Assembly: GCA_008330645.1 (NCBI GenBank)
Contig: VLTN01000010.1
Coordinates: 434,001 to 498,000 of the forward strand
Direction: 5' to 3'
DNA length: 64,000 nt
DNA from: Cafeteria roenbergensis
Lineage: Eukaryota; Sar; Bigyra; Bicosoecida; Cafeteriaceae
Shown here: positions 33,229 through 36,961 of the stretch, piece by piece
Layout: the number at the start of each line of letters is the position of its first letter
How positions within the stretch are numbered: position 1 is the stretch's first letter
Position numbers and translations under genes: made by a program
Notes under the pieces: generated by a model
Told to the model about the DNA's origin: nothing
Seen by the model: only the letters and a program-made list of their open reading frames with translations
Databases searched by the model: none

Positions 33229-36200
33229 TCAGTCGTACATCGCGTCGACGGCGTCCGCGGCGCCTGCGCCTTCCGCCGCGGCAGCAGCTGCGCCCTCGGC
33301 GCCGCCGGCGGGGGCGGTGAACCGGAAGTTGTCAGCGCCGACGCCGCCACCCATCTGGCTGCGCTGGCGCTGCATGGACGACGCAAAGGCGGAGTACTTT
33401 GCGAGGTCGGCGTCCGACACGGAGCGGCGCGCCTCCTTCATGGCCTCCTCGAGGTGGGCGGTCGACAGCTTGACGACGTAGTCCTCGACGGCGGGCGGCT
33501 GGCCGAAGAAGTCCGGGTTCTCCGGGTCGGCCTCGTAGGCGAGGCAAGCCTCGCGGTGGGCCTCGATCGACTGGCGGACAGCGAGCTTGGCCGCGCGCTG
33601 GCAAATCTCGGTGAGGTCGGCGCCCGTGAAGCCCTTGGTGAAGCGAGCGAGCTGGGAGAGGTCGATGTCACCGTCCATGGGAGTCTTGCGGAGCACGGAC
33701 TTGAGGATGGACATGCGGGAGTCGAGGTCGGGGGGCGGGATGAAGATGAGCTGGTCGAGGCGGCCCGGGCGCATGATGGCCGGGTCGAGGATGTCGGGGC
33801 GGTTGGTCGCGCCGATGATGAAGACGTTCTTCTTGGCGCCCACGCCGTCCATCTCGGTGAGGAGCTGGTTGATGACGCGGTCGCCTGCGCCACCGGCATC
33901 GCCCTGGGAGCGGCCACGGCTCTGGCCGATGGAGTCGAGCTCGTCGAAGAAGAGCACGCAGGGGGCGGCCTGGCGTGCCTTGTCGAAGACCTCGCGGACG
34001 TTGCTCTCCGACTCGCCGAACCACATGGTGAGAAGCTCGGGGCCCTTGACGGACACGAAGTTGGCCTGGCACTCGTTGGCCACCGCCTTGGCGAGGAGGG
34101 TCTTGCCGCAGCCGGGGGGGCCGTAGAAGAGCACGCCGCGGGAGGGGCTGAGGCCGAGCTTTTCGAACATCTCCGGGTGCTCCACGGGGTACTGGACCAT
34201 CTCGCGCAGCTCGCGCTTGACGGGCTCGAGGCCGCCGATGTCCGCCCAGCTGATGTTGGGGACCTCGACCACGGTCTCGCGGAGGGACGACGGGTTGGCC
34301 GTGGCGAGGGCGTGCTTGAAGTGGTCCTGGGACACCGCGAGAGAGGCCAGCACCTCTGCGTCGATCTCCTCGTCCTCGATGTCGATGAGCTCCATCTTCT
34401 CGCGGATGCACTGCATCGCGGCCTCCGTGCAGAGGGAGGCCAGGTCGGCGCCGACGTGGCCGTGCGTCTCGGCGGCGACGGACTCCAGGTCCACGTCCTC
34501 GTCGAGCTTCATGTTGCGGGTGTGGATGCGGAGCACCTCCAGGCGGCCGGTCTCGTCGGGCACGCCGATGTCGATTTCGCGGTCGAAGCGGCCGAAGCGA
34601 CGAAGGGCGGCGTCGATGGAGTTGGGGCGGTTGGTGGCGGCGATGACCACGACGGAGGCGCGCTTCTTGATGCCGTCCATGAGAGTGAGCAGCTGCGAAA
34701 CGATGCGGCGCTCCACCTCGCCCTGCGCCTTCTCGCGCTTGGGGGCGATGGAGTCGATCTCGTCGATGAAGATGATGGAGGGGGCGTTCTTCTCGGCCTC
34801 CTCAAAGGCCTTGCGAAGGTTCGACTCCGACTCTCCGGCCATCTTGGACATGATCTCGGGGCCGTTGATGAGGAAGAAGAAGGCGCCCGTCTCGTTGGCC
34901 ACGGCGCGGGCGATGAGGGTCTTGCCGGACCCGGGGGGGCCGTACAGGAGCACGCCGCGGGGGGGCTTCACGCCGAGGGTGGAGAAGAGGTTGGGGTGCC
35001 GCAAGGGCAGCTCGATCATCTCGCGGATCTGGCCGAGCTGGCGGCCGAGGCCGCCGATGTCGTCGTAGCCGACGGCGTCGGCGGACTCCTCGTCCTCGCG
35101 CACGACGGGCTCGCCCTCGCAGAAGATGAAGGTGTCGTCGTGCACGATGACGGGGCCTTCGGGCTCGGTCTCCACGACCTTGAACTCCACCGGGTGCATC
35201 GCCTTGCGGACGAGGAAGCTGTCCCCCTTGACGAGGGGCCGGAAGCTGTCCTTGAAGTAGGGGGCCAGGTACACCTCGAAGAGGTTCCCCTTGACGCCCT
35301 CCACGTCGGTGTCAAAGGGCAGCACGGACACCTTCTTGGCGAAGGGAATGTCCTCCTCCATGACGTGCACGGAGACGAGGTCGCCGAGGCGCACGCCGAG
35401 GTTCTTGCGGACCACCTTGTTCATGCGCAGGGAGCCTGCCTCAACCGAGTCGAAGGGGAGCACGACGCAGGCGGTCTCCTTGCCGCGCTTGCCGCGCAGG
35501 ACGACGGTGTCGGCCTTGAAGATGTTCAGCTCGTCCATCTTGGCCTGCGACATCTCCACCACGCTGTTGTCGTCGTGGGTGGAGTCGTCGACGACGAGGC
35601 GGTTGGCGGCGCGGCGCTTGGAGAGGGCGTCCTTGATCTTCTCCTCGGCGGCGGCGTCCTTCATCACCACGCGCTTGGGCTCCACGGCCTCGGGCTCGAG
35701 GAAGTCGGGCTCCATGTCCAGCGCCGTGGCGGAGCCGGCAACCACAAAGGGCACGTCCGGCTGCACGCTGACGACGCGGAAGGTCGCGGGGCTCTGGCCC
35801 TCGGGCGCCACGCGGAACTGGTCGCCCGCGGCAAGCGGGCGGGCCACGCCGCGCAGGGTGCCGTGGCGGGACGCGCCCTCGAAAAAGGCAGTCAGGTGGG
35901 TGGTCACCAGGGACGCGGGGTCGGCGAGCTCGCCCTCCTCGTCGCGGTACGCGGCGATGAGGACACGGGAGGCCATGGGAGGCGTCGCGGCCAGGGCCGA
36001 CACGCGGATCTCGCCCTCAAGCTCCACGCCCGCGTTGATGCGGGCAGTCGCCGGCAGCCTGGCCGCGCCCTCGCGGACCTCGGCCGTCGCGATGGCGGTG
36101 CAGGCCGTGTCGCGCGTGCCAGAGACCAGGATCGTGTCGCCGTCCGAGGCGCCGATGCGGCGAAGCACTGCGGGCGAAAGCTCCACCACCGTCTCGCCGG

Positions 36201-36961
36201 CAGCGGAGTGCTTCACCATGAGGCCGCCCTCGCCAGCGCCAGAGGCGGCGGCGGCTGCCTTTGCAGCGTCGTCGGAGCTGCGCGACAACGCCAGGGCAAA
36301 CGACGGGAGGGGGGGGGGGAGGGAAGCATGCATGTTGACAGTTCGCGCAAGCGGGGGCGCGCTTCGGGGCCGAGCGCAGCCAGCACTGCAGCGAGCAGGG
36401 CTCATCCGAAACGCTGGTCCTCTGGCAAGGGCAGGTCGCTGGCGGCGCGGCAGGCCGGCTCGCCGGAGGCGGATGCTCCCCAGCTTGCCCCAGGCCCCAC
36501 TCAAATGAGCCCCGGCTGGGCGTGCCAGGGACGCCGCACGGCTGGGAGCGGCCCAGCGGGACCGAACGGAAGATGCGTGCATGCTGCGCTCGGCGGGGCG
36601 CGCGCAGGGGCCGCGTGGCGGTCCCGCTGGGCGCGGTTGTTCCGCTTCGAACCGACGTAAGGGGGCAGATTCCGCTGACGCCAAAGCTCAAAGCACCCCC
36701 GGCCCGAACGCACGGCTCGCGCGGCCTGGTCTGGCTCGGGGGCTGCCGGTCCCGCGCAGCGCCGCGAACGGGGCGCACGGGGCGATGCCGACGCGGCCCG
36801 CAGCCCCGCGGGGCTCGCGACGCAGGCGCGTCCGGCCCGCTAGCGGCTCCAAGCAGCGGCCAGCAACGGCGGACACGTGTGGGCCAGCTCGGGCCTGCCG
36901 CCCGGCGCGAGCGGCTGGCAGACGGGCCCACTCGATGGGCTCGGACTCACTGGGATGCCAT
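33229..36961 (-). CDS. CDC48: CDC48/p97 AAA+ ATPase with an apparent extra N-terminal domain
   Basis: Exon 1 is only 11 bases (36961-36951, ATGGCATCCCA before GTGAGT); exon 2 runs 36277-33229 after CGCAG. Phases agree and give 1,019 residues, against about 806 for human p97. The usual parts are intact: N domain (about 229-400, from [16 protein letters not shown]), D1 with GPPGSGKT near 449 and IIFIDEID, D2 with GPPGCGKT near 722 and VLFFDELD, plus [11 protein letters not shown] and MRPGRLDQ near the arginine fingers. The tail ends DAMYD, a hydrophobic-Tyr-X ending like the p97 tail. In front of the N domain, residues about 24-205 repeat its layout ([17 protein letters not shown], then [11 protein letters not shown] and FRVV), so it looks like N-N-D1-D2. 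CDC48 unfolds ubiquitylated proteins for ERAD and other pathways. The core identity is certain; the tiny exon 1 is inferred from splice signals. Confidence 0.93.
36278..36950 (-). other. Intron 1 of CDC48
   Basis: This 673-base intron starts GTGAGT and ends CGCAG after a C-rich tract that includes an 11-base C run. It is the longest intron resolved in the window and follows directly after the fourth codon, a position often used by introns carrying regulatory sequence. Confidence 0.6.

Follow-up and report, generated by a model that had tools for sequence, protein, structure and literature searches.

Cdc48, also called p97 or VCP, is among the most conserved machines of eukaryotes. Can a Cdc48 carry two N domains in tandem? 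The question is raised by a 64,000-nucleotide stretch of the Cafeteria roenbergensis genome (contig VLTN01000010.1 of assembly GCA_008330645.1, forward-strand positions 434,001 to 498,000). This whole stretch is referred to as the window, and positions are counted from its first letter. A gene on its minus strand was originally predicted to encode a CDC48/p97 with the domain order N-N-D1-D2. This architecture is supported here by homology at the sequence level, by the reading frame and by codon usage, and on these grounds the original prediction is borne out. The extra, leading domain is designated N1 and the one that follows it N2.

Judged by the domains that define the family, the gene encodes a true Cdc48/p97. 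Membership holds despite the two N domains because it rests on the ATPase core and N2. Unless the spliced protein is named, residue numbers start at the methionine at base 36219; numbering in the spliced protein is higher by 23. Plant CDC48A (residues 21-813 of an 814-residue chain) aligns with residues 195-995 at 1195 bits, and human p97 (residues 16-793) aligns with residues 198-989 at 1176 bits. Pfam AAA matches with E 1e-97 over two stretches, D1 and D2, both with intact Walker A and Walker B motifs. N2 matches Pfam CDC48_N (E 2.8e-18) and CDC48_2 (E 1.9e-13), and p97/CDC48 sequences in PDB match N2 and the start of D1 at E about 1e-85. At E <1e-100, the best 60 of 79 PDB sequences are named Cdc48, p97/VCP or VCP-like, save 9ox9_A, a vesicle-fusing ATPase by name, which ranked 38th. 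The predicted protein ends in Met-Tyr-Asp, matching the hydrophobic-Tyr-X (HbYX) tail described for Cdc48 (PMC5070193). A scan of genome contigs yielded one relative, designated L001, a spliced eukaryotic-type Cdc48 with 74% identity over the best segment. The D1 domains of the two proteins are 82.3% identical. Identity to the plant protein is 55.3% for N2 versus 70.7% for the L001 N domain, 81.5% versus 85.2% for D1, and 68.6% versus 78.7% for D2.

N1 is recognizable as a second, diverged CDC48 N domain. It matches Pfam CDC48_N with E 2.1e-8 (34.7 bits, 0.4 bits below the curated cut-off of 35.1). It matches CDC48_2 weakly and below the cut-off (E 0.0059), and also weakly Molydop_binding (E 0.0022), a family that N2 matches too. 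As originally described, the second copy is the conserved one and the first is diverged; the repeat segments quoted for the two copies are indeed present in the sequence. N1 (residues 1-168) aligns with its own N2 in blastp at 60.5 bits (E 4e-16, identities 44/154) and with the L001 N domain at E 5e-10. The local score of N1 against N2 is 147, compared to a shuffle mean of 30 (z 23.6), and was reached by none of 2000 shuffles. Taken alone against N2, the Nn and Nc subdomains of N1 gave z 14.0 and z 9.1, respectively, each matched by 0/10,000 shuffles. In a phmmer search of PDB, a chain of the plant CDC48A N domain matched N1 over residues 9-160 with E 3e-5. N1 was also detected, at E 8.5e-6, by a profile built without N2 from L001, human and plant sequences; the best of 5000 shuffles reached E 2, and the Nn subdomain of N1 was significant by itself (E 3e-4). 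A second profile, which included N2 besides L001, human and plant, was run on 990 six-frame pieces covering the whole window and L001. In this frame it picked up two N domains, at E 1.9e-8 and 7.5e-104, with no further N domain in the 64-kb window at E 1. No UFD1 or PEX family is among the Pfam matches listed for N1, a search in which HMMER filters drop most matches above 0.1. By the Pfam matches listed, which include no such family, an origin of N1 from UFD1, PEX or NSF seems unlikely. The original prediction had named an unrelated fold for residues 24-205 as a hazard; at the level of sequence, these residues instead resemble a CDC48 N domain.

The gene model places N1 within the predicted protein. 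A single reading frame is open to its stop over 33229-36277, and exon 1 and exon 2 are predicted to join in frame (Table 1), yielding a 1019-residue product with the N-terminus MASHSDDAAK. The exon 1 donor is the sole GTRAG(T/G) or GTGAG donor within 36278-37400, a region scanned for these types only. The methionine at base 36219 becomes M24 of the spliced protein, and the first base of the predicted exon 2 is 36277; the residue numbers (24-205) and end point (36277) originally proposed agree with such a spliced gene. With a codon score trained on N2-D1-D2, the mean of the open frame is -0.54 at 36280-36684, +0.94 in N1 and +2.1 in the linker between N1 and N2. The 19 codons at 36276-36220 score +0.87 and are Ala/Gly-rich without clear periodicity. 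GC content at third codon positions (GC3) rises from 0.696 upstream and 0.737 in these 19 codons to 0.917 in N1 and 1.0 in the linker; N2 stands at 0.972 and D1-D2 at 0.948. The stretch at residues 169-208 (35596-35715) has GC3 1.0 and a codon score of 2.1. In steps of 20 codons, the statistics switch to coding near 36277. Neither an intron nor a stop is seen from N1 to N2, which share one frame throughout. N1 is therefore coding sequence in the frame of N2, as judged by codon score, GC3 and the uninterrupted frame. The GC content of the window is 67-79% per 2 kb, and that of the C. roenbergensis genome is ~70% (PMC6972860).

If N1 is a second N domain, does it retain the surfaces of the first? 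Residues were mapped through the alignment with human p97 at 12 cleft positions and 18 disease positions. The cleft positions beyond those in print are presumed here to be cofactor-cleft sites. Published cofactor contacts of p97 are Tyr110, Tyr143 and the 141-145 loop (PMC5389986). Plant and L001 each keep 12/12 cleft positions, N2 keeps 6/12 and N1 keeps 5/12. The changes in N2 are mostly conservative (R53K, I70V, Y110F, E141D, A142S, Y143F), whereas those in N1 are F52S, R53D, I70T, L72I, Y110M, E141G and Y143A. Thus both tyrosine contacts in print are lost from N1. The positions of human p97 disease mutations map to the N-D1 interface (PMC5131264). Of the 18, plant keeps 14, L001 12, N2 8 and N1 only 1, with 1 further position in a gap. 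Because most D1-interface positions and the two contact tyrosines are lost, N1 is probably not just a second set of the familiar cofactor sites; of the more or different cofactors originally suggested, a different partner is the likelier. As a separate observation, N2 has Val, Val and His at human positions 27, 114 and 159, as in the disease mutations I27V, I114V and R159H (PMC5131264). Since the plant protein shares the two Val residues, only His159 of N2 is unusual among the compared sequences.

The explanation that seems reasonably probable is that the gene encodes a Cdc48 with a tandem N-domain duplication, in which an ordinary motor carries a distal N1 that docks a different partner. N2-D1-D2 would form the usual hexameric segregase. 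N2 would dock on D1 and bind cofactors of the familiar UBX/UBXL, VIM and SHP types, while substrate would be threaded through D1-D2. N1, on its charged linker of ~38 residues, would serve as a distal second docking module. It would most likely bind a different partner, because the cofactor-cleft and D1-interface residues are lost. Such a partner may be a tether, an adaptor or a class of substrate, and N1 would add specificity rather than double existing sites. A precedent is found in Pex6, whose N1 binds the tether Pex15 as well as a D2 loop of Pex1 (PMC10777020).

Several points weigh against this explanation. Pex15 has also been placed on N2 of Pex6, not N1 (PMC10518020); since the site is disputed, the precedent holds for extra N domains that serve a tether, and not for N1 specifically. 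That N1 is in use is a prediction from the gene sequence. The fold expected of N1 is the kidney-shaped one of CDC48 N domains, a double-psi barrel plus a beta barrel; its AlphaFold models have a mean predicted local distance difference test score (pLDDT) of only 42.9 when N1 was modeled by itself and 41.8 when an alignment of four rows was supplied. The second model, used as the Foldseek query, gave 91 matches at E <0.001, and the best 50 of the 91 are all p97/Cdc48, but with template modeling (TM) scores of only 0.30-0.36 and root-mean-square deviations of 11.5-14.0 A. These matches do not count as structural evidence, because Foldseek also scores sequence. The Nc subdomain of N1 alone is weak against the profile of L001, human and plant (E 2.7), and its residue mapping spans a 9-residue insertion and may slip for some residues. 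Moreover, N2 differs from human at 10/18 interface positions, indicating that even the normal copy is not fully canonical.

Other explanations differ in what they make of N1. It could be a working second copy with the same cofactors as N2, giving up to twelve cofactor sites per ring, with higher avidity or several cofactors bound at once. In favor of this, N1 is homologous across both subdomains and keeps Val38, Asp55, Ala142, Arg144 and Pro145; however, Ser, Asp, Thr, Met and Ala stand in place of Phe52, Arg53, Ile70, Tyr110 and Tyr143, and a duplicate of this kind seems unlikely. The loss of known functional residues would instead suit a degenerating remnant, or a partnerless spacer tolerated at the N-terminus, as would the high divergence of N1 (24.8-33.3% identity to the four compared N domains) and its biased composition. 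Yet both subdomains remain recognizable over ~150 residues with no frameshift. Such a remnant or spacer is a shade less credible than a duplicate that works in the usual way. Just as doubtful is a working protein that begins at the internal ATG at 35664 (MKDAAAEEK...), leaving N1 untranslated or confined to a minor isoform. The product would resemble a normal one-N Cdc48 with a short N-terminal tail. Untranslated DNA, though, would not be expected to keep the codon usage of a coding region, a stop-free frame and a recognizable N domain; the statistics shift near 36277, not 35664; and the predicted spliced exon 1 runs into N1.

A different kind of alternative concerns the gene rather than the domain. 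The N-N form may be a specialized paralogue beside a normal one-N Cdc48, which is compatible with a distal N1 that docks a different partner. In heterokonts with plastids, two additional Cdc48 variants of symbiont origin are usually encoded (PMC5070193), and N2 is further from plant than is the N domain of L001. On the other hand, D1 is nearly as near to plant as that of L001, and no signal peptide is evident by eye in the predicted N-terminus. A specialized paralogue is possible but on the unlikely side. Relaxation specific to N2 after the duplication was also considered and was set aside, D2 too being further from plant than its L001 counterpart.

The six-frame N-domain profile found one N domain in L001, split across two exons, and no second N domain at E 1 in this one control locus. 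N1 used as a single query recovered the same N-domain site (E 6e-4) and elsewhere only E 0.3, whereas tblastn with N1 was too blunt, missing L001's own N domain. Read by eye, the L001 Cdc48 also opens with a short first exon. This intron-containing, eukaryotic-type gene lies at 3080-5650 of contig JAIYDP010000488.1, which is binned in a Verrucomicrobiaceae metagenome-assembled genome with one CDC48_N match; its presence there is probably bin contamination. The sole contig recovered from a viral collection (IMGVR_UViG_3300000571_000007) starts inside a two-AAA Cdc48-like gene (positions 2-1705), just before D1, and the N region of the gene lies beyond the contig end. The local score of N1 is highest with its own N2 (147), followed by plant (103), L001 (94) and human (74). 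N1 and N2 share 17 residues against human, and N1 and human share 9 against N2, but many of the 17 are Ala, Gly, Pro, Val or Arg, as expected from GC bias. In a five-row tree no branch is fully supported, and the N1 branch is 7.9 changes long. The scores, shared residues and tree would suit N1 either as a within-lineage copy of this N2 or as an older paralogue. An assembly artefact or a recent duplication was rejected: N1 and N2 show no similarity at the DNA level in blastn, and for the same reason the two copies are taken to have diverged long ago.

Table 1. Coordinates of the predicted gene and the domains of its product within the window
Feature	Position	Strand	Basis
Exon 1, 11 nucleotides, predicted protein start	36951..36961	-	ATG then GTGAGT donor
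Predicted intron 1, 673 nucleotides, GTGAGT...polypyrimidine...GCAG	36278..36950	-	Codon score, splice signals
Exon 2, remainder of coding sequence through stop	33229..36277	-	Open frame
N1, extra diverged CDC48 N domain, spliced residues 24-191	35716..36219	-	Pfam CDC48_N/CDC48_2, plant CDC48A N, N2 similarity, GC3 0.917
N1-N2 linker, ~38 residues, charged	35602..35715	-	Stop-free same frame
N2, canonical CDC48 N domain (CDC48_N + CDC48_2)	35104..35601	-	Pfam, PDB matches
D1 AAA domain, Pfam AAA 423-552; Walker A GPPGSGKT 427, Walker B FIDEID 484	34564..34953	-	Pfam, motifs
D2 AAA domain, limits estimated; Walker A GPPGCGKT 700, Walker B FFDELD 757	33742..34137	-	Pfam, PDB alignment, motifs
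C-terminal Met-Tyr-Asp, fits HbYX tail	33232..33240	-	Sequence

Three neighboring genes were noted. A gene for a MAPEG-family membrane protein lies just downstream (31996-32562, minus strand; Pfam MAPEG E 2.1e-10). An ELMO/CED-12 domain protein is encoded at 30447-31850 on the plus strand (Pfam E 1.2e-13). A 1933-residue open frame at 38738-44539, also on the plus strand, resembles a MAP3K in that its protein kinase domain is preceded by a PB1 domain; its flanks are long and of low complexity.

Three known systems invite comparison. The N domain of UFD1, a double-psi barrel plus Nc, has a fold related to that of CDC48 N. Unlike UFD1, N1 has no listed UFD1_N1 or UFD1_N2 match at E up to 10, with HMMER filters dropping most above 0.1, whereas N2 has marginal ones. 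The predicted protein is like the type II AAA+ ATPase Cdc48/p97/VCP in its N2-D1-D2 order, near end-to-end sequence, Walker motifs, N-D1 linker and HbYX tail, and unlike it in the added leading N domain. Each protomer of the Cdc48 proteins described so far has a single N domain (PMC10777020; PMC10518020), as the original prediction had stated for p97; here there are two. The peroxisomal type II AAA+ ATPases Pex1 and Pex6, sister proteins to Cdc48, each have two N domains (PMC5447069), consecutive and with one strongly diverged, as in the present gene. Pex6 N1 adopts the CDC48/NSF N fold (PMC10777020), and the Pex1/Pex6 layout is also described in PMC5070193. However, Pex1 and Pex6 assemble together into a heterohexamer, and their ATPase domains are diverged. 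The present protein has the ATPase domains and N2 of a Cdc48, its D1-D2 are not of the peroxin type, and the closest relatives of its N1 are N domains of Cdc48.

Tandem N domains as such are therefore already known from Pex1/Pex6, and the part that looks new is their occurrence in Cdc48 itself. Tandem N-terminal domains have been called "a unique feature of Pex1 and Pex6", Cdc48/p97 having a single one (PMC10518020). The same contrast is drawn in PMC10777020, and in excerpts of a Cdc48-family survey, N-domain duplication is reported only in peroxins (PMC5070193). No two-N Cdc48 was recognized in a search of open-access literature, which misses most subscription papers; to that extent the original remark that no such CDC48 was known holds for Cdc48, though not for tandem N domains in general. 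The phrase "two N-domains" in PMC4192671 describes a single cofactor in contact with two of the N domains in the complex, and another such phrase in the p97 literature refers to its ordinary N domain.

Finally, a broader scenario can be put forward tentatively, with slightly less than an even chance of being correct. In what is probably a free-living flagellate, a true Cdc48 may have independently evolved the Pex1/Pex6 layout. Its homohexamer would carry twelve N domains, and the six N1 copies, free of D1 docking and of the common UBX/SHP cofactors, would recruit a dedicated, lineage-specific partner. Many cofactors of the p97 N domain compete for only two N-domain sites (PMC5389986). A natural N-N Cdc48 would be an experiment on an N domain released from D1 docking and would contradict the statement that tandem N domains are unique to Pex1 and Pex6 (PMC10518020). 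It would also offer a test of the origin of Pex1/Pex6 from a Cdc48-like ancestor. If the scenario is true, the twelve-N-domain homohexamer would parallel, in a living organism, the step behind the peroxisomal Pex1/Pex6 machine.

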